64,000 nucleotides of DNA from Tachypleus tridentatus (Eukaryota; Arthropoda; Merostomata; Xiphosura; Limulidae): positions 40,976,348 to 41,040,347 of the forward strand of contig NC_134825.1 in the NCBI RefSeq assembly GCF_004210375.1, in the 5' to 3' direction. Numbering within the stretch: position 1 is the first letter of the stretch; every line of letters begins with the position of its first letter. This document shows, piece after piece, positions 3,980-61,605 of the stretch. The position numbers and the translations under genes are program-made. The notes below the pieces were generated by a model, which did no database searches, was not told the DNA's origin, and was given only the letters and a program-made list of their open reading frames with translations.

Positions 3980-6099
<2,120 letters not shown>

Positions 6100-26467: not shown

Positions 26468-26469
26468 TA

Positions 26470-31515: not shown

Positions 31516-31539
31516 CCTGTCGGTGAATCACGTTTGATT

Positions 31540-32709: not shown

Positions 32710-33520
32710 AAGTGCCCCATTGTGCAGTAAGTAAAAGTAACAATCGACTTTATACATGGAGCTGTTATTAGTGACAGAACCAATGGGTTTCTTTTTAAAA
32801 AACGTATTTTAGTTGAATATTGTACATTTAAGCATGACTTGTAGTTACTGAAAAAAAAACAGATTTAACAATTTGAACACGAACTTAGTACGATCATGAT
32901 ATACTGATGTTACAGCAGGTAGAAGAGCGCCGGAAGAAAAAAGTGATTTTTTTTTTCTTCGATGTTGAGAAAATGTTTCTCGTAAAACGTGTTTTGTGAC
33001 CTGTATGTAGAGCTTGTTTGATTATTTACTAACGGAAGTTAAATAGATTTCACGACACTTTTCATGTGAATGAACAAAACATTTGAACATAAATTTTAAA
33101 ATTGATGGTTATTTTAAATGTTCCACTACAAACACAGTTTGTTCAAATAGTGTATAATACTGATACTAAATGAAAACAGAATGTTTGAAAGAAAGACCTA
33201 AAAGAAAGTCACGTGTCTGAAAAATGGTATATGTTGAAATAATGTATAAACTGATACTAAATAAAAACAGTGTACTTAAAAAAACCAGAAGAAAGACACA
33301 TATGTCTGAGCAAAGGATATATATATATTATTCAATTCATAGAAATGCGTTTGATGCGAAAGTATTATATTATTTTTCATCGTTTAAATAGCTTTTCAAA
33401 ACACCTGTTTACATATTAAGATACCGTTGACGATGTATAGTTTAAATATATGAATCTAATACAAATTCTGATATATCACCTAAAAATCATATAGATATTA
33501 CAGTAAGAGTTGCATTTCAT

Positions 33521-33585
33521 AGCAGAGTGGCGCAGTGGAAGCGTGCTGGTATCAGAGGTCAGTGGATCAAAACCACACTCTGCTA
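33521..33585 (+). pseudogene. tRNA-iMet pseudogene (copy a), anticodon lost
   Basis: Matches the intact copies at both ends (AGCAGAGTGGCGCAGTGGAA and CACTCTGCTA). Seven bases, including the CAT anticodon, are missing between GTGCTGG and CAGAGGTC, giving 65 instead of 72 nt. It cannot work as tRNA. Boxes A and B remain, so transcription is still possible. Confidence 0.93.
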
Positions 33586-33709
33586 GCATTCCGTTTTCAT
33601 AATTTCCTTTCTCCTTCATCAAAGTTATTTAATGCACTTCAAACTAAGAAGTACTGCGAATATTTTCTATTATATATTTCTAATTTTTACTGTATGTATA
33701 ATCACACTG

Positions 33710-33886
33710 CCCCCCACTACAACGCTAAAATCAGGAGTTCGATTCCCGTCGGTGGGCTGAGAAATTGTCTTTCCGATTGGTGGTTGTGTAGTAGGCTAAC
33801 AACCTACTCACTTAAAAACCAACCTGTTACATAAAGCGCAGTGACTGCGGCCCTATGTTCCTCAAGGAATTCAGTGGCATATGATG
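33710..33886 (+). repeat. tRNA-derived SINE (family 2b-like, different tail) with 12-bp target duplication
   Basis: Head CCCCCACTACAACGCTAAAA, box B GAGTTCGATTCCC, then GGTGGGCTGAG and an unusual 3' part (AACAACCTACTCACTTAAAA ... GAATTCAGTGGCATATGATG). ATAATCACACTG flanks it exactly at 33698-33709 and 33887-33898. Confidence 0.88.
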
Positions 33887-34435
33887 ATAATCACACTGAT
33901 TAGTTTTAGTCTTTTCTTTTCACACGACTTCCTTCGTTTTATATGTACGTAGTTTATTATAACCAAAGACAAACCGCAAGATAAATAAAATTGAAAAACA
34001 CTGCGCCAATGGAAATGACCACAGGGTATATGGCATAGAATTTATCCTATGGTTTTGGAGGAAATAACGGAAGTAGAACTCATATTGCGGTGGATACATC
34101 GTCTATCAGTCTTAACATCCATTCGCCAGTTTCACATAATAAGTTTGCTTCCATTTTCCTGTCATGAAATAGAATACATTACTCTCTTCTTCATCAAATG
34201 TGATTATCATTTTTGCTTCCTTCTCTTTTCGTGGTGTTTAAGATTCCTTTTGATATTTCAAATACTTTAACCATTTCTCCCTTCTTATATCTTCACTGTC
34301 TCTAAAAGAGCTGTATAATATTCTCACGTGATTCTTTAACTTACAATTGCTGTTTTCATTCTATTGTTGGATTCCATTTTATCATATGTAACAGACAGTT
34401 GCATATATATTTTTATGTCTTCCATAAATATTTTC

Positions 34436-34890
34436 CATAAATGACGTAAAACTACGCATGCGTTAATAAATCATAGAGTACAGATATCTTTGGATTTAAT
34501 TTAAATTTTTAATTTCATGTAGTGTAATGAAACACTGAGATAAAGAATATCGTTTGAATAGAGTAAAATTTTCCTTTCCTTTTCTTTAACCAAGTAAAGT
34601 TAAACAAAAATGGTCTATTGATTGTAAATAATCTGGTTCTTTAAATAATATTGGATTATTTTAATAAAATACTTCACCCTAGTGCTTTACGTACCTGATT
34701 ATTATTTTTGAGTAATTGCAGGTAACTAAGTTTTGCCATTAATATTAAAATGTTCACCTTACAAACAATTAAGTTAACATTTAACTATAATCAGATGGTA
34801 AAGTATTGTTCTTATCTCACACGTTCACAATTACCTAGCGTCGTTACTATAGATTCGTCAGTAGAGTGAGCCATTTTCTATCCTAAAGCT
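34436..34890 (+). repeat. Repeat-unit core block in unit A
   Basis: Same block as 21757-22160 and 54190-54590, opening with AAATGACGTAAAACTACGCA and reaching CTCACACGTTCACAATTACC. The block defines the ancestral (short) unit. Confidence 0.75.
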
Positions 34891-35165
34891 GTTTGTTTGT
34901 TTTTTATTTTCGCGCAAAGCTACACGAGGATTATCTGCGCTAGCCGTCCCTAATTTAACGGTGTAAGACTAGAGGGGAAAGCAGTTAGTTATCACCACCC
35001 ATCGCCAAGTTTCGGCTATTCTTTTACCAACGAATAGCGGGATTGACCCTCATATTATAACGCCCACACGGCTAAAAGGGCGAGCATTTTTAGTGCGACC
35101 AGAATTTTAATCCGCGATTCTTAGATTACGAGTCGAACGACTTAAACCACCTGGACCTGCTGGAC
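34891..35165 (-). repeat. tRNA-derived SINE (family 1) inserted in unit A
   Basis: GTTTGTTTGTTTTTTATTTT tail side, CGCGCAAAGCTACACGAG, body and degenerate head (ACCTGGACCTGCTGGACC). It interrupts the array sequence between ATCCTAAAGC and TTTAAGGCAACAG, which are adjacent in units B-E. Confidence 0.88.
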
Positions 35166-36406
35166 CTACTACTTTAAGGCAACAGAAAAAGTGCAATTTC
35201 TGACAAATGAATGGTGTCAGTTGTTTATGGAATGTGCGAGTTTAAATATTACTGTTTAATAAAGGTTGCATGTACATCATTTTAAACATTTTAGATCATA
35301 ATATAAGCTTACAACGAATGTAACTGCATCTGAATTACTTTTATAGTTGTAAAGTCTGAGAATGCCTAGCGGAATGTCAGATAAGTATCTGCCCAAGTTT
35401 TTTTCAAATTCAATGCGTTTTAAGAAGTTCAAGTCGTTTCTTAGTAAAGTATACCTATTTCTTTAGTGCTCCAATGTACAAAATATTGAGAACTAGTTCA
35501 GCGCTCATGGTACAATTACACAACTTTATGAAACGTTCACTCCTACTGTGCAGATTATATAGACAACAGAATGTAAGTTATGAATATTTGTTTAAAGTTC
35601 TTCGATCTTTCCTGCTAAGATTCTCTTTTGCTACGTTATTACTAGTCTGTTCAACGCTACCTTTAATTTTTGGAAGATAGAACTGATATGAGAATGTTTT
35701 TGTTTAGTGTGCTACCTATCTGTAGAAACATGAGTTCGTTTTTTAGAAGTTAGTAACGTGAATATGACCGCTTATAGTGTTCACTACTGTGACGTGGTTA
35801 AACGTGAAAATTTTTCAGTTAAGTAACTTTAATTTCACATGTTTTCGATCTGTTATAGACGCCTCTTTGTAAGCTATTTGGTCTAAAGATGTTTTCGTTT
35901 AATGTTATTAGGTTCTATATTTCTTTTGCAAATATGTTATTGCTCGCAAAGCTGATTGTCTAGAGTAAACTACTGACTAAGTGTGAAAATAATCAGAAAC
36001 ATGTTCACTTTCCAAACTCTTCAGTTAATAAAGAGTATTAACATTTCTCAAGGAATTTTTCAGTATATTGCATACACTTCTGTGATTTTCTGAAGTAAAT
36101 TTTACATTCCTATTAAAGTACTTACGAAGTACTAAAGTACTTTTCTTTTCACATTTCTTCCTTCATTTTATATGTATATACTTTGTTATAACGTAAAACA
36201 TATTGCTACATAAAAAAATGAAAAAACACTGCACCAGTTGAAATGATCCCAGTTTATATGATGGGTTTTGGAGGTGTTAGCGGAAGTAGGACCTACGATG
36301 TGCTGGGGTTACATCGTCAATCAGTCTTAACATCCACTCGCCAGTTTCACATAGTAAGTTTGCTCCCATTTTCCTATCATCAAATAGAATAGATAACTTT
36401 CTTCTT

Positions 36407-36506
36407 CTAGAGGGAATGCAGTTTGTCATCACCATCCACCGCCAAGTCTTCGGCTACTCTTTTATAAACGAATAGCGGGATTGATCGTCACATTATAACG
36501 CCTCAC
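36407..36506 (-). repeat. SINE (family 1) body fragment shared by units B-E
   Basis: AGAGGGAATGCAG ... CACCGCCAAGTCTTCGGCTA ... CGAATAGCGGGATTGATCG ... ATTATAACGCC, without head or tail. The same fragment with the same limits lies at 39254-39352, 44560-44658 and 49865-49963, so it was present before the units multiplied. Confidence 0.85.
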
Positions 36507-37347
36507 TTTACAACCAAGTATACTTGTCTTGTCTTGTATGTCTTGTCTCACACGTACACAATAACCTAGCAATGTTTCTGTAGATTCGTCAATAGTGTAA
36601 GCCATTTTGAATCATAAAGCAACAGTAAAAAATTTCTTTTTCTGGCAGAATCTCAATAGAAACATTTCAGATCTTTATATAAGCTCACATCTAAAGGGAC
36701 CGCTTCTGAATTACTTTTATACTTGCAAGGTCTAAGAATGCCAAGCGAAATGCCCAATAAGAGTTTGTAGAATGTTTTTAAACAAGAAGTTCAGTGAGTT
36801 TTAAGAAGCAAATATCGTTTGTGACTAAAATATACCTATTTCTACAGTGATTCAACGTAACAAGATATTAAGAACTTGTCTAGGGCTCGTGGTACAATTC
36901 CACAACTTTATGAAACGTTCTCTCTTACGGTGCTGACTATATAGATAATAGAATGTAAGTTATGAATGTTTATTTAAAGTTCTTGGATCTTTCCAGCATT
37001 GATTTTCATTTAAGATTCTCTTTTGCTACGTCATAACAAGTCTGTGCAACGCCACCTTGAATTTTTGGAAGGAATTAGAAATGATATGATAATGCTTTTT
37101 GTTCAGTACGTCACCTATCCGTAGAAATATGCTTTTTTTAGAAATTACTCTCGTGAATATGACCGCTTATGGTGTTCACTACTTTAACGCAGTTAAACAT
37201 GAGAAAATTTCATTTAAGTTGCTTTAACCTCTTATGTTTTCTGTCTGTTAGAGACCCCTAATCATTAAGCTACTTTGTCAAAAAGATGTTTTCGTTTAAC
37301 GTTATTAGGTTCTATGTACATTTTCCAGACTCTTTAAGTTAATAAAG

Positions 37348-37480
37348 TTGTTGTTGTTCTTTTGAATTAAGCACAAAGCTACAGAATGGGCTATCTGTGC
37401 TTTGCCCACCACCGGTATCGAAACCCAGTTTTTAGCGTTGTAAGTCCGCAGACATACCGCTCAGCTTCTGGGGGGCCAGT
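37348..37480 (-). repeat. tRNA-derived SINE (family 2a) in unit B
   Basis: GAATTAAGCACAAAGCTACA ... CCACCACCGGTATCGAAACC ... GCGTTGTAAGTCCGCAGACA ... TGGGGGG. The counterpart is at 50801-50932 in unit E; unit A has the uninterrupted site (near 36025-36045). Confidence 0.88.
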
Positions 37481-37969
37481 TACTCAAGAGTAAAAACATT
37501 TCTTAAGGAACTTTTCAATATATTGCATACACTTCTGTGATTTTGTGAGAAGTAAATTTTACATTCCTATTAAAGTACTTATGAAAAATACAATAACTTA
37601 ATTATTTCCATCTAGATGAGTTATGTATTTGTAAACCTACTCTTTAAGCCTTAGATTTGTTTTCACTCGTTAGATAAAGTTTCGGGGGAAATACTCATGT
37701 TACAAAAGTTATATGGAAGGATTTCTGTGTATTTGAGAAACAAAATTTATATAAACGTCGATGACACTTACTGAGCACAGTCGCTAGTAATTGAAAAGTA
37801 AAACTTTTTTCGAATTATAAACAATATAGCAGAACTCATAACACAAATAAGCTAATTGTGTGTTTAATCCATGTGTAGAAACGGCAAGGTATGTCTTGAG
37901 CGGTTCTTTGACTTGATTTGTGAATGAACACGGTTCAGTCGGATGAATAAATAGATATTAATACACACT

Positions 37970-38179
37970 CTATGATCGCTGTAGTAGTGCTGTGAAAACA
38001 TCATAGACGTATCGGGTTTCATGGTTTAAACGCTTTAAGTCATGTTGTTTGTAATTAATATTTTCAACGTTTATTTTATTTGCATTTGGTGCGAATTCAT
38101 CAGTTGGAAGTGTATTCCATTCTAAGGGCTCTAAAGGTGTTCTACAAAGATATCTTTCAAAAGTATGTGACTTAAACAT
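37970..38179 (-). pseudogene. Unrecognised 69-codon coding-like fragment
   Basis: The minus-strand frame starts MFKSHTFERYLCRTPLEPLE, continues WNTLPTDEFAPNANKINVEN and ends TRYVYDVFTALLQRS before a stop. I do not recognise the family. Two points suggest it was once protein-coding. Its composition is normal for a protein, unlike the AT-driven frames nearby. A second, diverged and inverted copy at 22690-22810 keeps the EWNTLP....FAPN pattern. It lies in the ~480-bp piece private to unit B. It could be one exon of a captured host gene or part of an unknown element; no splice sites or promoter were identified. Confidence 0.45.
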
Positions 38180-38742
38180 AATTTCACACTCTTTCTTTAT
38201 AATGCAATTATTCTGAATATTTGAAAGTATGTAGTTATTGTTTTTCTACAAATTCTTGTAGAATGTTGATGCTAAACATAAAGCGCTATTTAAAAGTAAT
38301 TTAATAAATAACTACTCACGTATTAACCGCAGTTGTAGTTGACGCCCAGAGGACTTATAAGGCATTTGTAAGAACAAAAAAGTGAACTAGTACACAGTAT
38401 ATTACGGTACAATATTAAAAAAGAAAATTTTAATTTTAATCTTTTGATTTAGTGAATAGAAGTTCATAGCTACAGTTTATGACGAGAAAAATGTTAAAAA
38501 ATTTAACAAAGTGATATGTTAAAAACGATGTCACCTGTTATTATGAACTTTTACAAAAAATATTTTCGAAACAACAGTATTGTATTACACCATTTTATTT
38601 ATTTTTTAGTAATCAGATATCTAATATATTTTACTGTTTTACCCACACTTTTTGTACGTACTGTAGATGTATGGAAATGTATGTCGAATATTCCAATATT
38701 TTATGATCTAAAACACTCTGGTATAAACAATGTAATATGTTT

Positions 38743-38814
38743 AGCAGAGTGGCGCAGTTGAAGCGTGCTGGGCCCATAACCCAGAGGTCCGTGGATTGAA
38801 ACCACGCTCTGCTA
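38743..38814 (+). tRNA. tRNA-iMet(CAT), copy b, with tertiary-contact changes
   Basis: 72 nt with A1-T72, discriminator A73, anticodon CAT at 38775-38777 and the GGG/CCC anticodon-stem pairs of eukaryotic initiators. It differs from copies c and d in the D loop (CAGTTGAA instead of CAGTGGAA, the G18 position) and the T loop (ATTGAAA instead of ATCGAAA, C56). These bases normally make the D-loop/T-loop contacts (G18-55 and G19-C56). The T-to-C change also alters box B. TTTT lies at 38823. It is either weakly functional or an early pseudogene. Confidence 0.85.
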
Positions 38815-41541
38815 AAATTACGTTTTCATAACTTCATTTCTCGTTGATCAATGTCATTTAATTTATTTCAAACTAATAAGTACTGCTTGGATTTTCTTTG
38901 TTATCTATTATATATTAATAATTTTTGATGTACTTACACTAATTAGGTTTTTGTATTCCATCGTTAGTTTGCTGCGTGTTTTAGTCTTTTCTTTTCACAT
39001 GCCTTCCTTCATTTCATGTGTATATAGTTTGTTATAACGTAAAATATATTCGAACATGAAGAAATGAAAAAACATTGCACCAGCTGAAATGATCCCAGGT
39101 TATATGGAGGGTTTTGGAGATGTTAGCGAAAGTAGGACCTACGTTGTGCTGGGGATACATCGTCAATCAGTCTTAACATCCATTCGCCAGTTTCACAAAA
39201 TAAGTTTGCTCTCATTTTCCTATCATCAAATAGAATAGATAACTTTCTTCCTCCAGAAGGAATGCAGTTAGTCATCACCACCCACCGCCAAGTCTTCGGC
39301 TACTCTTTTATCAACGAATAGCGGGATTGATCGTCACATTATAACGCCTCACTTTACAACCAAGTATACTTGTCTTGTCTTGTCTTGTATGTCTTGTCTC
39401 ACACGTACACAATAACCTAGCATCGTTTCTGTAGATTCGTCAATAGTGTAAGCCATTTTGAATCATAAAGCAACAGTAAAAAATTTCTTTTTCTGGCAGA
39501 ATCTCAATAGAAACATTTCAGATCATTATATAAGCTCACATCTAAAGGGACCGCTTCTGAATTACTTTTATACTTGCAAGGTCTAAGAATGCCAAGCGAA
39601 ATGCCCAATAAGAGTTTGTAGAATGTTGTTAAACAAGAAGTTCAGTGAGTTTTAAGAAGCAAATATCGTTTGTGACTAAAATATACCTATTTCTACAGTG
39701 TTTCAACGTAACAAGATATTAAAAACTTGTCCAAGGCTCGTGGTACAATTCCACAACTTTATGAAACGTTCTCTCTTACGGTGCTGACTATAGAGATAAT
39801 AGAATGTAAGTTATGAATGTTTATTTAAAGTTCTTGGATCTTTCCAGCATTGATTTTCATTTTTTCTCTTTTTCTACATTATAATTCACTCCATTTTTGT
39901 TTACTTCAAATTATTTTTAGAGTAAACTTGAAAATTTCGTGGCGTTGCTAGGATGAAAATTACTTTCATTATGCTGAGCTGTTTTAATGAAGTAACCATA
40001 TTAATTGTGACTTTTTGCAAAATAAAAAAAATGATTATCTAGTAAATATTTTGATTAAAATGAAAAAAATAACAATGTCTGAAAAACATAAATAATTGTT
40101 AAAGCTGTTTTAACAAAAAGAGAACAGGATACATTGCTCCTGATTCTTTCATGTGCTTTGTATGACATTTCAAGTTTTCAAAAGAAAATAATCTTTTTTG
40201 GTGTCGTGATTTCTATTTTATGCTATCGTTTGCAGCGTTTTATGAATTTACTATTGTTTCATTTAAAGAAGAACTTTTTTTTTTCAAAACACACATGAAT
40301 AATGCAATACTAACGCCAATAAAACTAAACCAAACGAGACAAAAACCCAAATATAACGTACGAAAGCAGAAGTCGAAAAAACATAAAAGCAGCCACGTCT
40401 CTGTACTCATCTGTCACCATTTTGTTTCACTTATATTTCTGTGGTATTATACTCTTATTTTTCTGTTGATGTGACTGAATAAAGTAATTAGAGGTAAAAG
40501 AAAACAGTTTCACTGCCTATAATTTCTTATAAATAGCTACAACAGAAGAAATGGTTAAAAAATATACTTTGTCTCCAAGGTCAGAGATGATAACATACGA
40601 TCATCTTTTATCTGAAGCTTTACCAACATTTTGTACTGCTCTTTACAGTAATCTTTTGCAAATCAATGACTTATTACCCTCAAATACATAATTTAGTAGT
40701 TTCTCGGAGCTTCAGGTTAATCAAGGGCTGGCTGTATACCAGTATAAGATAGGTAATATGAAGATACAGCTCGATATCAGTATGAAAGAGGTAGAAAATA
40801 AACCGTGTTTTACAATATATAAAAGCGAAAATGATTAGGTTATAAACATGGGCTGATTACTGTTTACCTTTATGATTTTTTTCTTTGCTAAATTACCGTT
40901 TTCTCTAATAATAACCCTCGTTTTCTAAAGTATTCACAGTAAATAACATGTTATTTATTGAATATTTTAGAGTATTGTGATTTGTATATAAATGAGCTGT
41001 TCCCAGTGTCTTCAGAATGTCAAGTTACCTAAATTATTCGTTTAAGCGTGCGTGGCTCACCAGTGAGCTCGAGGGTTAATGAAGATAAAATTCATGTGAC
41101 TGACACAATGAACTTAAGCTTACTTTGAGCTCAAACAGACAAACAGAGCCTAGTGAGTGAACTTTATCCGAGTGTTTATTGTTAGGAAGTATACTTTTTG
41201 TAATTTGAAGGTTTCAAACTATCTTTAACTCTGTATGCTATACACGTTTTACGTGATAGAAAATCTACTTATAACCAAAATGTACTCTTCTTGAATTTCA
41301 TGTAAGTGTCGTGCAGCATTTAGTTTCGTATGTCACATCGTTATTCACGATTTTCATTCAAGTTACCGTGTACGTTTTGTTGCTAAGAAACTCAAGCATT
41401 CATACACCAGTAGGTAACAAGTCTCAGGATCTTTTGTAAAAGTATTGAAATCCACCTTGTATGCATTGGTTTACTGTGTTCATGTTATACTGTAATATAG
41501 AATCCCATAAAAAACAATGACAATTTAGAGCCTACTAAATT

Positions 41542-41632
41542 TATTTGTAGTTAAACACAAAGCTATGCAGAGGGCTATGTGTACTCTGCCCTCCACGGGC
41601 GTTGTAAGTCCGCAGACCTATCATTGTGCAAC
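41542..41632 (-). repeat. tRNA-derived SINE (family 2a), truncated, in unit C
   Basis: TAGTTAAACACAAAGCTATG ... CTGCCCTCCACGGGC joined directly to GTTGTAAGTCCGCAGACC, so the box B part is deleted. The identical deletion is seen at 46851-46943. Confidence 0.8.
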
Positions 41633-43381
41633 TAGTTTGAAAACAGACAAAATAAAAATAAAGGGTCTTTTAGCTTCAGTAGACCGTAGTTTATGATAAG
41701 CAATATTTCCTTTACCTAAAATGTTTCTCTTCTGAGAATAGATCCTTGTCCCAGCTTCATTAATAACAGTTATTTTCTAATTACATCAAACGCATTTTTG
41801 CAATATTTATCTCAAAACCACATTTTTTGTAAATATTCTATCATCGTTCACAAACTTCTCTTCATAACAATCAACAAACTAATTTCACTCGATATCAAAT
41901 AAATATTAGTATAAAATCTCCATCCTTGACATACTTTTATATAACATAAAAAGTGGCGAAATATAAGAGTTATTTATGCCTCTTTTAGCAATTAAATTCA
42001 ACTAAAATGGGAACATGCAATTAGAAGAGAAAGTATAATTGGGGAAAAAGAGTGGAACTGAACACGTGTAACTCACGAAATTCGAAGAAATCGAAGGTGA
42101 ATGACCAACAAACACTTGATTTTTATAAAAATGATTAACGGTTCAAATACTCTAACGAACTGTGGCTGTAGTTCACATATTTGGAGAAAAACAATAAATA
42201 CCTCACGCTATCTACTTTCAGAAGGAAACGTGTGAATTAACTTTATGTTTTCTATATTCACGTATTAATGAATTATATCAGATAATCTAATTAAAATAGT
42301 AATGACAGAGACCTAAAGTTCAATCAGAGACTTTTAATTTTATGCAGAATATGTCAACACATCCTACTTCTTGTAAACTAAGTAGTGAATTTTAAATCCA
42401 TGACTTAAATATCAGAGATCACCTAAGCTTTATTTAAAAACATACTAATAAAAATCTGTAATTGTATTTTCAACAATTACAAAACGCGTCAATAAAAAAG
42501 TCATTAATCTTAATACAAAGTATGATTTTATCTAATTAAGTAAAGAGTAAAAATGACGTTTATGTGTGTTCTTTATCATTTAATATCATGTTATTATACG
42601 AATATTTAGATTACAATGTGACATTTCCCTCATGACAAAATGTTTTTAAGAAAGTTCCACCATACACCTAACTGATTTATTATGGAATACGAATCATTTT
42701 GGTTTTACTGAACTGTTTACAGAATAATTTTTCTTGAAGATCACTGATTAAAAAAGTGAGGTTATAATTAATTGTAAATATTAAAAACATCCAGGTATTG
42801 GTTTACAAAATAGATATTCATGCATATGCCGCAGAACGTTTTTTTACTAACATTTAGAAATATACCTTTAAGAATTGAATAATTTTATAATAATGTGTTC
42901 ATAATTTTCGATATATGAAAAAAGTAGCGATTTTATCAGTTTTTGTCCAGAGTGTTGTATCAGAGGTGCAGAGGTTAATGACGACTAAACATGTCTTTAT
43001 TATATTAAAAATCCCATATTTTACTGAGATTTAATATGTGGAGCTAAAGAAACAGTAACTTTTTTTTCAGAAGCAAAAATCTGAAAAAGCTACTTTTGTT
43101 GATAATAATCAAGCAACTTGAGTTTTGAACTTAAATTTGTAATGCTGTATTACACTTCAACTAACAGAAACACTGTAGAAAGGTACGAAATGAAACATAT
43201 ATTCGAAATAGCTAATAGTATATAAAAATATATTTATGTATGTATTCAATACGCAAAACTATCGTTGACCCTAACAAATCATTAATACATTATTTTCTTT
43301 TACGAATTCCTTAGGGTTTAAACAAAAGACTTGAAAGACTTTGGATAATTATTAATATTTGATGCATATGAAGTAAAAGTG

Positions 43382-43460
43382 TTGTTGTTTTTACTGAAGA
43401 ATATCTGTCGTCTACCCACAATGGTAACGAAACGCGGTAGCTAAGGTGTATAAGTTTACG
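43382..43460 (-). repeat. Decayed SINE (family 2a) at the right edge of the long segment
   Basis: GAATATCTGTCGTCTACCCA, CAATGGTAACGAAACGCGGT and AGCTAAGGTGTATAAGT follow the minus-strand family 2a order (CTGTGC..GCCCACCACGGGTATCGAAACC.., GCGTTGTAAGTC). The counterpart in unit D is at 48688-48765. Confidence 0.6.
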
Positions 43461-44048
43461 TGTGGTTATTTAAAAATAAACAGATTTAACAATTACAATG
43501 TACTATATACGATCACAATATACTGATGTTATAGCAGGTAGAACAGCGCCGGAAGGGAAAAGGTTATTTTTTTTCCTATAGTGTTGAGCAAATCTTCTCG
43601 TAAAACGTGTTTTATATGTTCAACTTGTTACGCTATTTACTAACGGAAGTTAAATGGATTTCACCACACGTTTTCTCTGAATAAACAAAATATTTGAACG
43701 TAAATTTTAAAATTAATGGTTATTTTAAATGTTCCACTACTAACACATTTTGTTCAAACAGTGTATAATACGATTACAAAATAAAAACAGTATACTTAAA
43801 GAAAAAACACAAAAGAAAGACATATATGTCAGAGCAAAGGGAATATATATATATTATTCAATTCATAGAAATACGTTCGATGCGAAAGTATTATATCATT
43901 TTTCATTGTTTAAACAGCTTTTCAAAATACGTGTTTACATACAAAGATGGGGTTGACGAAGTAAAGTTTGAATATGTAAATCTGATAACAATGAGGAATA
44001 GTAGCACCTAAATGTCATATAAATATTACTGTGAGACGTTACTTTCAT

Positions 44049-44120
44049 AGCAGAGTGGCGCAGTGGAAGCGTGCTGGGCCCATAACCCAGAGGTCCGTGG
44101 ATCGAAACCACGCTCTGCTA
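44049..44120 (+). tRNA. Initiator tRNA-Met(CAT), copy c, intact
   Basis: 72 nt, colinear with metazoan initiator tRNA: AGCAGAG acceptor strand pairing with CTCTGCT (A1-T72 pair) and A73. The D arm is GCGCAGTGGAAGCG. The anticodon arm CTGGG-CCCATAA-CCCAG has three G-C pairs next to the loop and CAT at 44081-44083. The T arm CGTGG-ATCGAAA-CCACG has the initiator bases A54 and A60. Box A (TGGCGCAGTGG) and box B (GGATCGAAACC) are intact, and a TTTT terminator follows at 44129. It delivers Met-tRNAi to the small ribosomal subunit via eIF2. It is part of a tandem array. Confidence 0.98.
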
Positions 44121-44128
44121 ACATTACG

Positions 44129-44132
44129 TTTT
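44129..44132 (+). terminator. RNA polymerase III terminator of tRNA copy c
   Basis: TTTT eight bases after the tRNA end, conserved at the same distance in copies b (38823-38826) and d (49433-49436). Confidence 0.8.
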
Positions 44133-44672: not shown

Positions 44673-44712
44673 TACTTGTCTTGTCTTGTCTTGTCTTGTA
44701 TGTCTTGTCTCA
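44673..44712. repeat. (CTTGT)n pentamer run, variable between units
   Basis: ACTTGTCTTGTCTTG... with five TTGT repeats here, four at 39368, three at 36521 and two at 49979, followed by ATGTCTTGTCTCACACG or similar. It sits between the SINE fragment and the ACACAATAACCTAGCA motif in each unit. Confidence 0.85.
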
Positions 44713-46850
44713 CACGTACACAATAACCTAGCATCGTTTCTGTAGAATCGTCAATAGTGTAAGCCATTTTGAATCATAAAGCAACAGTAAAAAATTTCTT
44801 ATTCTGCTAGAATCTCAATAAAAACATTTCAGATCATTATATAAGCTCACATCTAAAGGGACCGCTTCTGAATTACTTTTATACTTGCAAGGTCTAAGAA
44901 TGCCAAGCGAAATCCCAAATAAGAGTTTGTAGAATGTTGTTAAACAAGAAGTTCAGTGAGTTTTAAGAAACACATATCGTTTGTGACTAAAATATACCTA
45001 TTTCTACAGTGTTTCAACGTAACAAGATATTAAGAACTTGTCCAGGGCTCGTGGTACAATTCCACAACTTTATGAAACGTTCTCTCTTACGGTGCTGACT
45101 ATAGAGATAATAGAATGTAAGTTATGAATGTTTATTTAAAGTTCTTGGATCTTTCCAGCATTGATTTTCATTTTTTTCTCTTTTTCTACATTATAATTCA
45201 CTCCATTTTTGTTTACTTCAAATTATTTTTATAGTAAACTTGAAAATTTCGTGGCGTTGCTAGGATGAAAATTACTTTCATTATGCTGAGCTGTTTTAAT
45301 GAAGTAACCATATTAATTGTGACTTTTTGCAAAAGAAAAAAAATCATTATCTACTAAATATTTTGATTAAAATGAAAAAAATAACAATGTCTGAAAAACA
45401 TAAATAATTGTTAAAGCTGTTTTAACAAAAAGAGAACAGGATACATTGCTCCTGATTCTTTCATGTGCTTTGTATGACATTTCAAGTTTTCAAAAGAAAA
45501 TCATCTTTTTTGGTGTCGTGATTTCTATTCTATGCTATCGTTTGCAGCGTTTTATGAATTTACTATTGTTTCATTTAAAGAAGAACTTTTTTTTTCAAAA
45601 CACACATGAATAATGCAATACTAACGCCAATAAAACTAAACCAAACGAGACAAAAACCCAAATATAACGTACGAAAGCAGAAGTTGAAAAAACATAAAAG
45701 CAGCCACGTCTCTGTACTCATCTGTCACCATTTTGTTTCACATATGTTTCTGTGGTATTATACTCTTATTTTTCTGTTGATGTGACTGAATAAAGTAATT
45801 AGAGGTAAAAGAAAACAGTTTCACTGCCTATAATTTCTTATAAATAGCTACAACAGAAGAAATGGTTGAAAAATATACTTTATCTCCAAGGTCAGAGATG
45901 ATAACATACGATCATCTTTTATCTGAAGTTTTACCAACATTTTGTACTGCTCTTTACAGTAATCTTTTGCAAATCAATGACTTATTACCCTCGAATACAT
46001 AGTTTAGTAGTTTCTCGGAACTTCAGGTTAATCCAGGGCTGGCTGTATACCAGTATAAGATAGGTAATATGAAAATACAGCTCGATATCAGTATGAAAAA
46101 GGTAGAAAATAAACCGTGTTTTACAATATATAAAAGCGAAAATCATTAGGTTATGAACATCGGCTGATTACTGTTTACCTTTATGATTTTTTTTTTGCTA
46201 AATTACCGTTCTGTCTAATAATAACACTCGTTTTCTAAAGTATTCACAGTAAATAACATGTAATTTATTGAATATTTTAGAGTAATGTGATTTGTATATA
46301 AATGAGCTGTTCCCAGTGTCTTCAGAATGTCAAGTTACCTAAACTATTCGTTCAAGCGTGCGTGGCTCACAAGTGAGCTCGAGGGTTAATGAAGATAAAA
46401 TTCATGTGACTGACACAATGAACTTAAGCTTACTTTGAGCTCAAACAGACAAACAGAGCCTAGTGAGTGAACTTTATCCGAGTGTTTATTGTTACGAAGT
46501 ATACTTTTTGTAATTTGAAGGTTTCAAACAATCTTTAACTCTGTATGCTATACACGTTTTACGTGATAGAAAATCTACTTTTAACCAAAATGTACTCTTC
46601 TTGAATTTCATGTAAGTGTTGTGCAGCATTTAGTTTCGTGTGTCACATCGTTATTCACGATTTTCATTCAAGTTACCGTGTACGTTTTGTTGCTAAGAAA
46701 CTCAAGCATTCATACACCAGTAGGTAACAAGTCTCAGGATCTTTTGTAAAAGTATTGAAATCCACCTTGTATGCATTGGTTTACTGTGTTCATGTTATAC
46801 TGTAATACAGAATCCCATAAAAACAATGACAATTTAGAACCTACTAAATT

Positions 46851-46943
46851 TATTTGTAGTTAAACACAAAGCTACGCAGAGGGCTATGTGTACTCTGCCC
46901 TCCACGGGCGTTGTAAGTCCGCAGACCTATCATTGTGCAACTA
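46851..46943 (-). repeat. tRNA-derived SINE (family 2a), truncated, in unit D
   Basis: Same insertion and same internal deletion as 41542-41632, copied with the unit. Confidence 0.8.
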
Positions 46944-49352
46944 GTTTGAAAACAGACAAAATAAAAATAAAGGGTCTTTTAGCTTCAGTAGACCGTAGTT
47001 TATGATAAGCAATATCTCCTTTACATAAAATGTTTCTCTTCTGAGAATAGATCCTTGTCCCAGCTTTATTAATAACAGTTATTTTCTAATTACATCAAAC
47101 GCATTTTTGTAATATTTATCTCAAAACCACATTTTTTGTAAATATTCTATCATCGTTCACAAACTTCTCTTCATAACAATCAACAAACTAATTTCACTCG
47201 ATATCAAATAAATATTAGTATAAAATCTCCATCCCTGACATACTTTTATATAACATAAAAAGTGGCGAAATATAAGAGTTATTTATGCCTCTTTTAGCAA
47301 TTAAATTCAACTAAAATGGGAACATGCAATTAAAAGAGAAAGTATAATTGGGGAAAAAGAGTGGAACTGAACACGTGTAACTCACGAAATTCGAAGAAAT
47401 CGAAGGTGAATGACCGACAAACACTTGATTTTTATAATAATGATTAACGGTTCAAATACTCTAACGAACTGTGGCTGTAGTTCACATATTTGGAGAAAAA
47501 CAATAAATACCTCACGCTATCTACTTTCAGAAGGAAACGTGTGAATTAACTTTATTTTTTCTATATTCACGTATTAATGAATTATATCAGATAATCTAAT
47601 TAAAATAGTAATGACAGAGACCTAAAGTTCAATCAGTGACTTAATTTTATGCAGAATATGTCAAAACATCCTACTTCTTGTAAACTAAGTAGTGAATTTT
47701 AAATCCATGACTTAAATATCAGAGATCACCTAAGCTTTATTTTAAACATACTAATAAAAAATCTGTAATTATATTTTCAACAATTACAAAACGCGTCAAT
47801 AAAAAAGTCATTAATCTTAATACAAAGTATGATTTTATCTAATTAAGTAAAGAGGAAAAATGACGTTTATGTGTGTTCTTTATCATTTAATATTATGTTA
47901 TTATACGAATATTTAGATTACAATGTGACATTTCCCTCATGACAAAGTGTTTTTAAGAAAGTTCCACCAAACACCTAACTGATTTATTATGGAATACGAA
48001 TCATTTTGGTTTTACTGAACCGTTTACAGAATAATTTTTCTTGAAGAGCACTGATTAAAAAAGTGAGGTTATTATTAATTGTAAATATTAAAAACATCCA
48101 GGTATTGCTTTACAAAATGGATATTCATGCATATGCGGCAGAACGTTTTTTTAATAAAATTTAGAAATATACCTTTAAGAATTGAATAATTTTATAATAA
48201 TGTGTTCATAATTTTCGATATATGAAAAAAGTAGCGATTTTATCAGTTTTTGTCCAGAGTGTTGTATCAGAGGTGCAGAGGTTAATGACGACTAACCATG
48301 TCTTTATTATATTAAAAATCACATATTTTACTGATATTTAATATGTAGAGCTAAAGAAACAGTAACTTTTTTATCAGAAAAAAATCTGCAAAAGTTACTT
48401 TTGTTGATAATAATCAAGCAACTTGAGTTTTGAACTTAAATTTGTAATGCTGTATTACACTCCAACTGACAGAAACACTGTAGAAAGGTACGAAATGAAA
48501 CATATATTCGAAATAGCTAATAGTATATAAAAATATATTTATGTATGTATTCAATACGCAAAACTATCGTTGACCCTAACAAATCATTAATACATTATTT
48601 TCTTTTACGAATTCCTCAGGGTTTAAACAAAAGACTTGAAAGACTTTGGATAATTATTAATATTTGATGCTTATGAAGCAAAAGTATTGTTGTTTTTACT
48701 GAAGAATATCTGTCGTCTACCCACAATGGTAACGAAACGCGGTAGCTAAGGTGTATAAGTCTACTTGTGGTTATTTAAAAATAAACAGATTTAACAATTA
48801 CAATGTACTATATACGATCACAATATACTGATGGTATAGCAGGTAGAACAGCGCCGGAAGGGAAAAGGTTATTTTTTTCCTATAGTGTTGAGCAAATCTT
48901 CTCGTAAAACGTGTTTTATATGTTCAACTTGTTACGCTATTTACTAACGGAAGTTAAATGGATTTCACCACACGTTTTCTGTGAATAAACAAAATGTTTG
49001 AACGTAAATTTTAAAATTAAAGGTTACTTTAAATGTTCCACTACTAACACATTTTGTTCAAACAGTGTATAATACGATTACAAAATAAAAACAGTATACT
49101 TAAAGAAAAAACACAAAGGAAAGAGATATATGTCAGAGCAAAGGGAATATATATATATTATTCAATTCATAGAAATACGTTCGATGCGAAAGTATTATAT
49201 CATTTTTCATTGTTTAAACAGCTTTTCAAAATACGTGTTTACATACAAAGATGGGGTTGACGAAGTAAAGTTTGAATATGTAAATTTGATAACAATGAGG
49301 AATAGTAGCACCTAAATGTCATATAAATATTACTGTGAGATGTTAATTTCAT

Positions 49353-49424
49353 AGCAGAGTGGCGCAGTGGAAGCGTGCTGGGCCCATAACCCAGAGGTCC
49401 GTGGATCGAAACCACGCTCTGCTA
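49353..49424 (+). tRNA. Initiator tRNA-Met(CAT), copy d, intact
   Basis: Identical to copy c over all 72 positions, with the anticodon at 49385-49387 and TTTT at 49433. The 5' flank is also nearly identical to that of copy c. Both retain every initiator feature, so both are likely functional, or at least were until very recently. Confidence 0.98.
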
Positions 49425-50800
49425 ACATTACGTTTTCATAACTTCATTTCTCGGTGATCAATGTCATTTAATTTATTTCAAACTAATAAGTACTGCTAGG
49501 ATTTTCTTTGTTATCTATTATATATTAATTATTTTTGATGTACTTACACTAATTAGGTTTTTTGTATTCCATCGTTAGTTTGTTGCGTGTTTTAGTCTTT
49601 TCTTTTCACATGCCTTCCTTCATTTCATGTGTATATAGTTTGTTATAACGAAAAACATATTGGAACATAAAAAAATGAAAATACATTGCACCAGTTGAAA
49701 TGATCCCAGGTTATATGGAGGGTTTTGGAGATGTTAGCGAAAGTAGGACCTACGTTGTGCTGGGGATACATCGTCAATCAGTCTTAACATCCATTCGCCA
49801 GTTTCACAAAATAAGTTTGCTCCCATTTTCCTATCATCAAATAGAATAGATAACTTTCTTCCTCCAGAAGGAATGCAGTTAGTCATCACCACCCACCGCC
49901 AAGTCTTCGGCTACTCTTTTATAAACGAATAGCGGGATTGATCGTCACATTATAACGCCTCACTTTACAACCAAGTATACTTGTCTTGTAAGTCTTGTCT
50001 CACACGTACACAATAACCTAGCATCGTTTCTGTAGATTCGTCAATAGTGTAAGCCATTTTGAATCATAAAGCAACAGTAAAAAATTTCTTTTTCTGGCAG
50101 AATCTCAATAGAAACATTTCAGATCATTATATAAGCTCACATCTAAAGGGACCGCTTCTGAATTACTTTTATACTTGCAAGGTCTAAGAATGCCAAGCGA
50201 AATGTCAAATAAGAGTTTGTAGAATGTTTTTTAAACAAGAAGTTCAGTGAGTTTTAAGAAGCAAATATCGTTTGTGACTAAAATATACCTATTTCTACAG
50301 TGTTTCAACGTAACAAGATATTAAGAACTTGTCTAGGGCTCGTGGTACAATTCCACAACTCTATGAAACGTTCTCTCTTACGGTGCTGACTATAGAGATA
50401 ATAGAATGTAAGTTATGAATGTTTATTTAAAGTTCTTGGATCTTTCCAGCATTGATTTTCATTTAAGATTCTCTTTTCTCTCAACGTCATAACAAGTCTG
50501 TGCAACGCTACCTATAATTTTTGGAAGGAATTAGAAATGATATGATAATGCTTTTTGTTCAGTATGTCACCTATCCGTAGAAATATGCTTTTTTTAGAAA
50601 TTACTCTCGTGAATATGACCGCTTATGGTGTTCACTACTTTAACGCAGTTAAACATGAGAAAATTTCATTTAAGTAGCTTTAACCTCTTATGTTTTCTCT
50701 CTGTTAGAGACCCTAATCATTAAGCTACTTTGTCAAAAGATGTTTTCGTTTAACGTTATTAGGTTCTATGTACATTTTCCAGACTCTTTAAGTTAATAAA

Positions 50801-50932
50801 GTTGTTGTTGTTGTTTTAAATTAAGCACAAAGCTACAGAATGGGCTATCTGTGCTTTGCCCACCACCGGTATCGAAACCCAGTTTTTAGCGTTGTGAGTC
50901 CGCAGACATACCGCTCAGTTTCTGGGGGGGGC
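50801..50932 (-). repeat. tRNA-derived SINE (family 2a) in unit E
   Basis: Counterpart of 37348-37480 at the same place in the unit, so the insertion preceded the separation of B and E. Confidence 0.88.
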
Positions 50933-51730
50933 CAGCTACTCAAGGGTAAAAGCATTTCTTAAGGAACTTTTTAATATATTGCATACACTTCTGTGATTTT
51001 GTGAGAAGTAAATTTTACATTCCTATTAAAGTACTTACGAAAAATACAATAACTTAATTATTTACATCTAGATGAGTTATGTATTTGTAAACCTACTCTT
51101 TAAGCCTTAGATTTGTTTTCATTCCATAGATAAAGTTTCGGGGGAAATACTCATGTTACGAAAATTATATGGAAGGATTTCAGTGTATTTGAGAAACAAA
51201 ATTTATATAAACGTCGATGACACTTACTGAGCACAGTCGCTAAAGCGACTAAATAAACAAAAATAAAGCGCTATTTAAAAGTAATTTAATAAATAACTAC
51301 TCACGTATTAACCGCAGTTGTAGTTAACGCCCAGAGGACTTATAGGGCATTTGTAAGAATAAAAATGTGAAATAGTCCACAGTATGTTACGGTACAATAT
51401 TAAAAAAGAAAGAATTTTAATTTTAATCTGTTGATTTAGTGAATAGAAGTTCATAGCTACTGTTTATGACGAAAAAATGTTAAAGGAATTTAACATAGTG
51501 ATATGTGTTAAAAACGATGTCACCTGTTATTATGAAGTTTTACAAAAAATATCTTTGAAACAATAGTATTGTATTACACCATTTTATTTTTTTTTAGTAA
51601 TCAGATATCTAATATATTTTACTGTTTTACCCACACTTATTGTATGGACTGTAGATGTATGGAAATGTGTGTCGAATATTCCAATATTTTATGATCTAAA
51701 ACACTCTGGTATAAACAATGTAATATGTTT

Positions 51731-51795
51731 AGCAGAGTGATGCAGTTGAAGGGTGAATCACTCATAACTCTGTGGACAGAAATTACGTTCTGCTA
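51731..51795 (+). pseudogene. tRNA-iMet pseudogene (copy e)
   Basis: AGCAGAGTGATGCAGTTGAA at the 5' end and TTCTGCTA at the 3' end match the family. The anticodon arm (CACTCATAACTCTG) and T arm no longer pair properly. It shares the D-loop GTTG change with copy b. Confidence 0.85.
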
Positions 51796-52977: not shown

Positions 52978-53959
52978 TTGAAAGGTCTCAGCTCTACCCG
53001 GTGGGTTGAGAGGCAGGACTCAATCATTGTCTTTCTAGAATTAATCCATGCAGTTGCAGACACCCTTGAGACCATATCAGGTTGTCAAGACAGAGATTCT
53101 GCCACGCAAGCCAATGAATTGTTGTGTTCTATAACACAGCCAGAATTCATCATCAATTTACTTACCATTGCTAAATTGCTTTCCTTCAGTTTACCTCTGT
53201 GCAACTTACTGCAGCAATAGAACATTGATTTAGGTGTTGCAATGCATCATACAGAAATAGGGAAAGATTTAATCCGTTCACTCAGAAATAATACTGTGAA
53301 TGAATTTAACAACATTTTCTGTGAGGCTCAAACTGTGTGTAGGGAGCTTCAAATTGACATCATAATGCCAAGACAGGCTAAAACGTGCTAACCCAGAAAC
53401 CACTAGCCCTGAGGAGTACTTTCGTATTGTTGTACTGGTACCATTTGTTGATCACTTTCTTTCACAAATATGTGACCGTCTGTCCAGTCACAAAACTCTC
53501 CTTACAAACTTCATGTGTCTACTACCATCAGGATCTACCACAGAACGGTCAGAACCTACAGCACAACAATGTGACCAAATTGAAGAGTTGGTCAATATAT
53601 ACATGGCTCACATTGACAGCATTTAACTAGTTGCAGTAGGTGAACTTAGGGTTTTGTACAAATCACTTATGAACAACAGACCAAACAATGTCATGCATGC
53701 ATATGCAATGTACAATGCATAAATGTTCCTTGTCATTTCTGGACTGTTGAAAGTATTTGCCACGCTGCCTGTGTCAACGAGACCAGTGGAACGGTCGTTT
53801 TCAACTCTCAGAAGACTCAAAAGGTATTTGAGAAATACCACCACTGAAGATCGATTGAATGGCCTGGCCTCATTGTACATTCATCGTGATATTAAATTTG
53901 AACCAAACTGTGTAGTAGATGTCCTTGCAAGAACGAACAGGCGTTTGAGCCTTTCATAG
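52978..53959 (+). pseudogene. hAT transposase fragment, C-terminal part
   Basis: Two open stretches. 52978-53220 carries GLSSTRWVERQDSIIVFLEL and runs to LPLCNLLQQ. 53723-53959 carries the dimerisation domain (RPVERSFSTLRRLKRYLRNT, LNGLASLYIHRDIKF). The part between them is recognisable only in broken frames. Confidence 0.85.
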
Positions 53960-54185
53960 ATATTCGATTGTATTTCTCTAGTTCTGACAAAACTTGCTGT
54001 ATTAAAAGTGTTCAAACAGATATTTGCATTTGAACATTTGTTGTGTGTGAAATTATCTGTCATGCAATCACGGATGTTTATGAAACTTCACAGGTGGCAA
54101 CTGAACTTGTCTAAAAGGTTTGGGTCCATGGGAGGGTTAACCCCTAACCCCCCCCTTGGCTACGCCCCAATGTCTTTTATACATA

Positions 54186-54600
54186 TATTCTCTTAGTAAC
54201 GTTAAAGTACGCCTGCGTTAACAAACCATAGACCATACTTTGATTTAATTTAAATTTTAAATTTTATGTAGTGTAATGAAACATTGAGATAGAGAATAGT
54301 TATTGAATGGAGTAAATTTTTATACTTATTTTCTCAACCGTGTAAAGCTAAACAAAAATGGTCTGTTGATTGTTAATAATCTGATTCGTTAAATAATGTT
54401 TTATTATTTTAATAAAAATACTTCACCCTATTAATTAGTGTTTTGGAGTAATTGCAGGTAAATAAGTTTTATTAGTAATATTAAAAGGTCAGTTTATAAC
54501 CAACTCAATTCACATTAAAATATTTAGATGTTGAAGTACTTTTTTGTTTTTGTGTCACTCGTACACAATAACCTAACACACAGCTACACAAATATTTTAT
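54186..54600 (+). repeat. Repeat-unit core block, diverged copy F1
   Basis: Resumes array-type sequence right after the hAT end: TACGCCTGCGTTAACAAACC, AACAAAAATGGTCTG, GTAATTGCAGGTAAATAAG, CACTCGTACACAATAACCTA. It matches 34440-34880 and 21757-22160 in order. Confidence 0.75.
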
Positions 54601-54960
54601 ACCTTATTTAAATATCTGTGTATCAATGATGTAAAACCATGCTTGTGTTAACGATTAATATAACGCAGATATAACTGGATTTAATTTGAATTTTTAATTC
54701 CATGTAATGTGATAAAACAACAATAAAGATAAATAACACAATTTGTATAGAGTAAGTTTAGTATTTGATTCCTTTAATGAAATAACGATTTTAACAGTCT
54801 TAGTCTATGGATTGTAGATAATATGGTTGTTTAAATAAATTTGGATGATTTGAATGAAATACTTCAGTGCTTTAATTTGTGTGCTTCACTATAATTTTGG
54901 TGTAATTACAGATAACTAAGTTTTTTGGTAATATTCAATAGGTCGCTTGATCAACTATTT
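54601..54960 (+). repeat. Repeat-unit core block, diverged copy F2
   Basis: The same block again in tandem with F1: GATGTAAAACCATGCTTGTG, CATGTAATGTGATAAAACAA, GATTGTAGATAATATGGTTG, GTAATTACAGATAACTAAG. More diverged than F1. Confidence 0.65.
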
Positions 54961-56445
54961 TTTTGAAATCATGTTCTACTTTTAACTTTTATAAGACGTT
55001 TCAGATGAGCTATATCTTTGTCATTATCTTTGACTCTGTTTTGAGGTATTTTTTATGAATGTTGATAGTAATGTTTGATATATTTCTTTTGTCTTCTCTA
55101 TTCTTTAATGAATTTATAATAATAATAATTTTAAATTATTTTTCCCTTTGTATCTCTCCTGTATATACTCGTCTCTTCTGTCTTAACCTTTCCAATAAAA
55201 TTTCATTTAATTTTATTTTTATTATTTTCACATTCATTATTTCTTTTTCTTTTATTTCTTCTTCTTCTTTCTTTCTTTTTTCCAAACACTTCTCTATCAA
55301 TTGCCATTCCTTCAGTTTTCAGTGGATAAAGCGAAACTTGGTATAATCATATCATGGCCTAAATTAATCATACAGTTTTATATTTTTTAATTCAAGTTTT
55401 TAATACAGATTTTAAAATAAGTCAAACCACCCGAAAATCTAGATTTGGCTCTCTATGTAGTCATATTTGCCTTAATCAATATGAAATCTGGCAGAAATAT
55501 TAAATGTTCATGCGCCCAACACATATAAATCAGAAAAGTTGGGTGTACATGGTTCTGTCGCATTAGTCATTACTCGGCCGTATTTTAACCAATTTACATG
55601 AGAATATAAATAAAAAACTCTTTCATATAAGTTTCGTGCATTGACAAACAAAAATGGTGAACCTGACAATTGTTAGAAATTCAAATCGGATTATATGCAC
55701 ATTTTTGGTCATATTATGAAAGCCAGAAAGTTAAAATAAACTCATGGGAGATTTAGTGTATCATTCAGCCCCGTTCAGACCAACTTACATGCAAGGCGGC
55801 AAAGAGGTACTTTTCTACAGCTTCTCTAAACTGGCACCCTATAAATTTGGACTTGCTCGTTTTCAGTAATAAATGGGTGATTGAGAAGCCAAAGGTTGTT
55901 GTTCTTTACAACTACGACACAGTATTCATATTTTGGTCAAGTTACCAGAGATTTGGTACAAATATACCTTTTTAAACGTTTTAAACAGAGATATGGACAG
56001 CTTTGATATTTTTCTCTTTTTTTGCTCAATTTTTAGGAAGAAAAGAACAATTGGTCTCTACCTCTAGTAATGTAGATGGTATTTAGTAAAAATATATCTC
56101 CTTGCACGTAACAAACAGTGATATAGACAATTGTCGATATTTTTTTGTGTTTTTCATTATTTTCATGGTGATAGGTAGGCCATGATGGAATTCGTGATGG
56201 AGACATACTGCATTCATCCCTTAAATTCTTTAATGTCTTTTTCTATATAGTCTCGTAATTATCTCATGTTTCTAACTGCTACATCTATCCTTCAAACCTT
56301 CTTTTGCTGCCTATAACAAGGTGCAGATCTGCCTAATCCAAAAGTCAATGCTAAAATATTTAGCCTGAATTATTTTTAAATGTTTCCTCCCTTTTCTACT
56401 ACACATGCCATATCGATACTCAACCATTTAACCTAGAATTCACAG
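54961..56445. other. AT-rich stretch, no gene; T-rich tract and unclassified segment
   Basis: A T-rich tract at 55040-55320 gives an open frame of Phe/Ile/Ser only and is not a gene. A similar tract recurs at 60860-60960. The segment 55430-56210 is less AT-biased and contains repeated phrasing (AACAGAGATATGGACAGCTT / AACAGTGATATAGACAATTG with GATATTTTT after each), suggesting an old duplication. The family is unknown. Confidence 0.5.
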
Positions 56446-61590: not shown

Positions 61591-61605
61591 AATTCTTTCA
61601 TTTCT

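Follow-up and report, generated by a model that had tools for sequence, protein, structure and literature searches.

A repeat array carrying initiator tRNA genes

The window (the whole 64,000-nucleotide stretch of DNA analysed here) contains a genuine repeat array, in which five initiator-tRNA-like sequences (at 33521, 38743, 44049, 49353 and 51731) lie in one orientation inside long direct repeats, as a preliminary description had reported. The array is assembled from a shared block, S, consisting of the tRNA and about 1.1 kb of downstream sequence, which is followed by one of two spacers. Spacer a (about 4.2 kb) gives units of 5.30 kb, and spacer b gives a unit of 2.38 kb; the spacers are two different sequences. 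The blocks run a0-S0-b0, then, past a junction, S1-b1-S2-a1-S3-a2-S4-b2-S5, and further downstream a3, with six direct S slots in the window (Table 1). The largest direct repeat matches 38742-45184 to 44048-50477 (96.9% over 6454 columns). In contrast, five of five dinucleotide shuffles of the window, with its N run removed, gave neither a self-match at the same threshold nor a match to the tRNA profile. The single N run of the window lies at 8721-9220, and thus no marked scaffold gap falls inside the array. The right end of the array is open, since the third a-type spacer (from 61596) passes the end of the window.

Table 1. Features of the array and its surroundings (positions in the window)
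Feature	Position	Strand	Evidence
a0, end of old a-type spacer, upstream of first tRNA copy	32837..33520	+	80-83% to 43458-44047
S0, tRNA-iMet pseudogene, 7 nt missing around anticodon	33521..33585	+	61/65 aligned bases identical to intact gene; no ARAGORN or Rfam call
Old S0 flank and b0 spacer, interrupted by SINE-like element (34890-35145) and other insertions	33586..36128	+	matched segments 72-81% to young S/b copies; last 107 bp 87-90%
b0/S1 deletion junction; b0 end, tRNA and S1 start missing	36129..36139	.	11 bases between matches (about 13 filler bases by eye)
Unit S1 (tRNA lost) and b1 spacer	36140..38742	+	95.7% to 49597-51242
S2, tRNA-iMet, two substitutions (numbered here 18 and 56)	38743..38814	+	70/72 identical; ARAGORN; Rfam 52.4 bits
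S2 flank and a1 spacer (with S2 tRNA, first 5.3 kb unit)	38815..44048	+	97.3% over 5313-column unit
S3, tRNA-iMet, intact	44049..44120	+	Rfam tRNA 57.7 bits; identical to S4
S3 flank and a2 spacer (with S3 tRNA, second 5.3 kb unit)	44121..49352	+	repeat alignment
S4, tRNA-iMet, intact	49353..49424	+	Rfam tRNA 57.7 bits
S4 flank and b2 spacer (with S4 tRNA, 2.38 kb unit)	49425..51730	+	repeat alignment
S5, broken tRNA-iMet, 5' part like young array, 3' part far more diverged	51731..51795	+	abrupt divergence inside tRNA
Decayed inverted tRNA-iMet relic	57575..57637	-	nhmmer E 4e-8
Decayed inverted tRNA-iMet relic	59763..59828	-	nhmmer E 1.7e-11
a3, third, old a-type spacer, cut by window end	61596..64000	+	83-89% to a1/a2 in matched segments

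The unit map first proposed was wrong in places. Its two unit lengths are real where the starts of the tRNA copies are 5306 (38743 to 44049), 5304 (44049 to 49353) and 2378 (49353 to 51731) bases apart. However, the 5222 bases between 33521 and 38743 are not a 5.3 kb unit; they comprise two b-type units from between which the tRNA was deleted near 36128/36140, together with insertions. The range given for the array (32840-55000) leaves a3 and the decayed copies at 57575-57637 and 59763-59828 outside. A derivation of the 5.3 kb unit from the 2.4 kb unit by insertion was rejected as well, because at E 1e-3 a short SINE-like stretch is all that spacers a and b have in common. Relative to b2, the b1 spacer carries an insertion at 37787-38273. 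A piece of the a spacer also occurs inverted at 31505-32000.

Intact, altered and broken tRNA copies

Five tRNA-iMet copies had been proposed. ARAGORN, and Rfam at its gathering score, each accept three of the five sites (38743, 44049 and 49353, with a tRNA fold and a CAU anticodon) but call neither 33521 nor 51731, and relaxing Rfam to E = 1 revealed no further tRNA in the window. The tRNAs at 44049 and 49353 are identical to each other, while the one at 38743 differs from both at two bases, in positions that are nearly invariant. Among the six direct slots, two tRNAs are unchanged (S3 and S4), one is altered (S2), two are decayed (S0 and S5) and one is deleted (S1). Eukaryotic initiator tRNA-Met is marked by A1:U72, three G:C pairs at 29-31:39-41, A54 and A60, and all of these were present when the sequences at 44049, 49353 and 38743 were read by eye. 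S3 and S4 are each followed, 9 bases downstream, by TTTT and preceded by a TATA-like stretch, TATAAATA. Both copies probably act as normal initiator tRNA genes, with Pol III transcribing them from internal promoters.

The upstream flank and tRNA start of S5 are common to the array, whereas the rest of the tRNA is far more diverged (upstream, 26/468 substitutions; 3' part of the tRNA, 13/41; Fisher p 1.6e-6). No S flank was found downstream, and 51760-51890 has no array match at E 1e-4. Beyond S5, a weak match to the sequence upstream of the tRNA in the a-type units (58160-58294, E 1.9e-5) lies on the same strand (-) as the relic at 57575-57637.

All seven copies were folded, with each direct copy starting one base ahead of its tRNA. 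At minimum energy, 44049 and 49353 form the acceptor, D and T arms but lack the standard anticodon arm. Fold z-scores were -2.4 for 44049 and 49353, -2.1 for both 38743 and 33521, -1.6 for 51731, and -0.4 and +1.5 for the inverted relics. Thus a clear lack of fold signal is confined to the two inverted relics, and folding cannot separate broken direct copies from intact ones.

Layers of divergence

The array has a young core (approximately 36140-51755), in which copies are 2-7% apart (93-98% identical), lying between older members; these edge members are 10-28% apart (72-90% identical). The right edge of the young sequence falls within a tRNA gene. For S0, pairwise divergences of 36-38% were discarded because the alignment forced S0 insertions onto unrelated sequence, and BLAST segments and segment alignments were used instead. 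Compared with S3, the tRNA body of S0 differs at 4/65 sites and its flank at 126/671 (Fisher p 0.0097), the flank being three segments with the insertion-interrupted parts left out; in the Fisher test of b0, counts came from BLAST percentages, gaps included, over 35284-35918 and 36022-36128. With less divergence in the tRNA body than in the flanks, S0 was probably once a working gene, and the contrast fits past selection on a gene that the 7-nt deletion broke later. In the young copies, the identity of the S3 and S4 tRNAs (0/72 differences versus 36/1026 in the flank) is a weak sign of selection, and the S2 tRNA shows no such sign compared with S3 (2/72 versus 38/1036 in the flank).

The two 5.3 kb units differ at 127/5297 sites (2.4%), including 48/2503 in the a-spacer part. 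Differences are more frequent in S (44/1143) than in the rest (83/4154; p 0.0006, with counts from two alignments). More exchange in S than in the spacers would give such an excess; uneven mutation could be an alternative, and 17 of the 127 differences fall in the first 250 columns. Shared sites group the S copies by their downstream spacer at 9 positions, against 2 of another pattern, when the spacer edge is included, and at 4 against 2 after trimming. Together, these site patterns lend weak support to exchange inside S.

Origin of the array

As the preliminary description had it, initiator tRNA copies, some intact and some decayed, form a head-to-tail array of kilobase units, and we consider it likely that the array arose by local tandem duplication of initiator tRNA genes, with unequal crossing-over and birth-and-death. 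The birth-and-death reading is supported by the block structure, the unit lengths and the layered divergence. We infer recombination between S blocks out of register, which would let either spacer follow S and the copy number drift. One deletion took out the tRNA of S1. The term satellite-like, which implies many homogeneous units, does not suit six direct slots in the window with two spacers and 2-28% divergence.

An assembly artefact, in which two haplotypes or falsely duplicated contigs were placed in tandem, is unlikely. The 5.3 kb units differ no more than two alleles could in an outbred animal, but the array interior has no N run, and divergence layered from 2% to 28%, two spacer types, a filler-bearing deletion junction and single-copy insertions all speak against it; allelic copies would account for at most some of the divergence steps. 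There is only a slim chance that the unit itself is mobile, whether as a transposable or retroposed element that carries the tRNA as a passenger or as a SINE derived from a tRNA. Such an element might explain the two inverted relics (57.6 and 59.8 kb), the a-type spacer at 61.6 kb that is not preceded by S, the inverted a-spacer piece (31505-32000) and the SINE-like, hAT and Tc1-like elements close by. Against this, the members are adjacent and head to tail, the repeats span both sides of the tRNA, and three ORFs in the array (38507-38758, 40166-40471 and 43769-44008) have no Pfam match above the curated cut-off, in a run that sampled coding content with 20 chosen ORFs of 273 stop-to-stop frames of at least 50 aa. 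The viral contigs scanned contained no match to the exact tRNA body and none to a 19-base SINE piece.

A maintained dosage locus, where selection keeps the initiator tRNA multicopy and unequal exchange sets the number, would be compatible with local duplication and is in keeping with the two identical intact copies and with past constraint on the S0 tRNA. We nevertheless regard it as very improbable, as only two of the six direct slots are unchanged, one being altered, two decayed and one deleted; with two unchanged genes, the dosage-adjusting role suggested earlier is unsupported. It is similarly improbable, though conceivable, that a long-lived initiator-tRNA locus is renewed from its centre, with old units pushed outward to die, and that its copy number varies between individuals and alters translation capacity. 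The best account of the locus is ordinary local duplication and decay, not a special device. It leaves the existing picture of tRNA gene families unaltered, and offers a compact, readable case of tRNA gene gain and loss through tandem duplication, layered by age from the core outwards. In S0 the tRNA body changed little as the flanks drifted, and comparison of this old copy with related genomes would make it possible to date a tRNA gene loss.

Comparison with known tRNA arrays

The literature matches listed included neither an array of initiator tRNAs nor any tRNA array from a horseshoe crab, and no paper matched the SINE strings. In Xenopus laevis, a 3.18 kb tDNA repeat holds tRNA-iMet and is, like the units here, a kilobase unit with an initiator tRNA; it differs in being homogeneous and present in many copies, and each of its units has several different tRNAs.

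A survey of eukaryotic tDNA clusters, in the excerpts consulted, describes rapid turnover, genes mixed with pseudogenes and mostly parallel orientation (PMC2888827), as we see here. It counts neighbours within 1000 nt as clustered, and by that definition the array is not a cluster, since its copies are 2.4-5.3 kb apart. The tRNA-Ser/tRNA-Tyr (SYY) cluster of Arabidopsis likewise has tandemly repeated tRNA genes in one chromosome region but, going by its abstract-level account, belongs to a plant and consists of tRNA genes for serine and tyrosine (PMC12308677). In Entamoeba histolytica, tRNA genes also sit within tandem array units; as outlined in PMC2652664, almost all tRNA genes are arrayed, with at most 5 genes in a unit and short tandem repeats in between, whereas here there is one short array of one isoacceptor.

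Kilobase units with tRNA genes, arranged head to tail, are what is seen in a tandem tRNA VNTR, and such repeats are already known from human 1q23.3. That locus is another case of kilobase units with tRNA genes, head to tail, on an animal chromosome, with 9-43 GC-rich units of 7.3 kb per allele and CTCF binding in the portion of the report available (PMC4041453). Unlike it, the present array has six direct slots and is AT-rich and diverged, with two unit lengths and one tRNA in each unit, most of them altered, broken or lost.

Organization of the tRNA array

The head-to-tail array of initiator tRNA-Met (tRNA-iMet) genes proposed in the preliminary description is real in the assembled sequence, but its units had been partly misread. 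Self-comparison of the window and per-part profiles resolved it into a shared block, S (the tRNA plus ~1.1 kb downstream), followed either by spacer a (~4.2 kb) or by spacer b (1.25 kb; 1.7 kb where an insertion lengthens it). From left to right the order is a0 S0 b0 / S1 b1 S2 a1 S3 a2 S4 b2 S5, and later a3, which is separated from S5 by nearly 10 kb of other sequence and is cut by the window end (64000). At E 1e-3, spacers a and b have only a short SINE-like stretch in common, so the two unit lengths reflect two different spacers instead of a single unit that has or lacks an insertion. At the S/spacer border of both types a short similar stretch is visible by eye, a possible crossover point.

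True a-units span 38743 to 44049 (5306 bases) and 44049 to 49353 (5304), and a true b-unit spans 49353 to 51731 (2378). In contrast, the 5222 bases from 33521 to 38743 are two b-type units whose intervening tRNA was deleted, and thus the window holds six direct tRNA slots (S0 to S5). At the deletion junction b0 ends at 36128 and S1 begins at S-internal position 244, with 11 bases between the matches (a filler of about 13 by eye). The inverted a-spacer piece on the left could be either a dispersed element within the spacer or the product of exchange with a3.

Features located in the window
Feature	Position	Strand	Evidence
WW-domain exon	3980-4237	+	Pfam, E 2.7e-14
Gap of 500 bases, the only one	8721-9220
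Tc1/mariner-like transposase remnant	25345-26225, also given as 25689-26225	-	Pfam HTH_Tnp_Tc3_2, E 5.5e-8
Inverted a-spacer piece	31505-32000	-	Self-comparison; 95% identity to part of a3 (63341-63732), 88% to a1/a2
S0 tRNA, 7 nt missing around anticodon	33521		Profile, E 4.8e-16
S1, tRNA absent	from 36140
S2 tRNA	38743		ARAGORN, Rfam
S3 tRNA	44049		ARAGORN, Rfam
S4 tRNA	49353		ARAGORN, Rfam
S5 tRNA	51731		Profile, E 1.2e-7
hAT-type transposase pieces, broken	52128-52601, 53723-53956	+	Pfam
Decayed tRNA copy	57575-57637	-	Profile, E 4e-8
Decayed tRNA copy	59763-59828	-	Profile, E 1.7e-11

State of the tRNA copies

ARAGORN and Rfam (gathering score) identified three tRNA genes in the window, S2, S3 and S4, each with a CAU anticodon (ARAGORN); relaxing Rfam to E = 1 revealed no extra tRNA there. 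A profile built from these three good copies and run on the window gave seven matches (up to E 0.01), two of them on the minus strand. All five tRNA-iMet sites originally listed match this profile, only three being accepted by ARAGORN and Rfam. When the window, minus its N run, was dinucleotide-shuffled five times, neither a profile match nor a self-match at the repeat threshold arose.

The S3 and S4 tRNAs are identical (72 bases) and carry A1:U72, three G:C pairs at 29-31:39-41, A54 and A60, which are features of initiator tRNAs. S2 differs from them at two bases, numbered here as 18 and 56. Since these are nearly invariant D-loop/T-loop contacts, with 56 lying within the B box, the S2 tRNA is probably weak or dead. 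The upstream flank of S5 differs from that of S2 by substitutions at 26/468 sites, and the first 25 nt of its tRNA show three differences from the array. The rest of this tRNA diverges abruptly (13/41; Fisher p 1.6e-6), and for 51760-51890, after the break, the array offers no match at E 1e-4; the young sequence therefore ends, on its right side, inside the tRNA gene. The two inverted relics, both strongly decayed, agree with the intact gene at 51/72 and 52/67 bases. Upstream of the one at 57575-57637, on the same strand, lies a weak a-spacer match (58160-58294, E 1.9e-5), and together they suggest an old inverted unit.

Age layers, possible selection and possible exchange

Unequal exchange that recurs near the centre of a tandem array would leave a core of young copies flanked by older ones, the pattern seen here. 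Core copies share 93-98% identity in S, a and b. Identity to the core is 72-83% for a0, S0 and b0 on the left and 83-89% for a3 on the right. The exception is the last 107 bases of b0 (87-90%); as they are less diverged than the preceding 635 (Fisher p 0.004, on counts calculated from BLAST percentages), they may represent an intermediate layer.

The S0 tRNA differs from S3 at 4/65 aligned sites, compared with 126/671 in the flanks (p 0.0097; p 0.012 for near flanks only). This contrast is the best evidence here for genuine genes instead of passengers, and S0 was probably retained as a gene as the sequence on either side drifted, until the deletion broke it. Among young copies, the signal of selection is weak or absent (tRNA versus flank differences: S3/S4, 0/72 and 36/1026; S2/S3, 2/72 and 38/1036; S2/S4, 2/72 and 22/1031). 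The two 5.3 kb units, S2 + a1 and S3 + a2, differ at 44/1143 sites in S and at 83/4154 in the remainder (p 0.0006, counts taken from two alignments), and the first 250 columns hold 17 of the 127 differences. When S copies are paired by downstream spacer (S2 and S3 versus S1 and S4), nine sites follow the pairing and two a different pattern with the spacer edge included, or four and two after trimming it. Exchange within S seems plausible.

Surrounding sequence

G+C content ranges from 24 to 41% in 2-kb steps. The WW-domain exon, with best PDB matches to Itchy/NEDD4-group E3 ligases and then YAP1, probably belongs to a host gene. Together with the transposases and the tRNA sequences, this exon suggests animal DNA. 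Self-comparison places inverted copies with 82% identity beside the Tc1-like remnant (24894-25097 and 26257-26476), and a SINE-like repeat (~52488-52757) between the hAT pieces, whose DUF4371 and hAT dimerisation matches fall in separate reading frames. The SINE-like 19-base core has 12 matches with at most 3 mismatches (0.02 expected), four of which (36457, 39303, 44609, 49914) lie within repeated S blocks and so are not independent. Both this SINE-like core and the base composition would fit a horseshoe crab. The SINE-like strings had no literature match; PMC7815833 describes SINEs as a small share of horseshoe crab genomes. A dispersed ~0.5 kb repeat (34389-34881, 21718-22245, 54170-54944; copies 69-77% alike) lies partly inside an S block.

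Comparison with known tRNA arrays

The mechanism is probably ordinary, namely local tRNA gene duplication and decay. The dosage-adjusting locus suggested in the preliminary description, an unlikely reading, overlaps with this explanation and is not exclusive of it. To our knowledge an array for the initiator tRNA alone is uncommon; our literature search was narrow, hence we do not claim that it is unprecedented.

A survey of 74 genomes (PMC2888827) describes rapid turnover of tRNA genes and pseudogenes, mostly parallel cluster members and large clusters that arise independently elsewhere too, and gives tRNA tandem repeats as known until then only from Entamoeba histolytica, where nearly every tRNA gene lies in arrays (PMC2652664). 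In Arabidopsis, Ser and Tyr tRNA genes form a tandemly repeated cluster (PMC12308677), and at human 1q23.3 each allele carries 9-43 tRNA-repeat units, each 7.3 kb long (PMC4041453). The Tachypleus locus is a small, decaying case of such tandem tRNA repeats, which are already known with kilobase units in animals.
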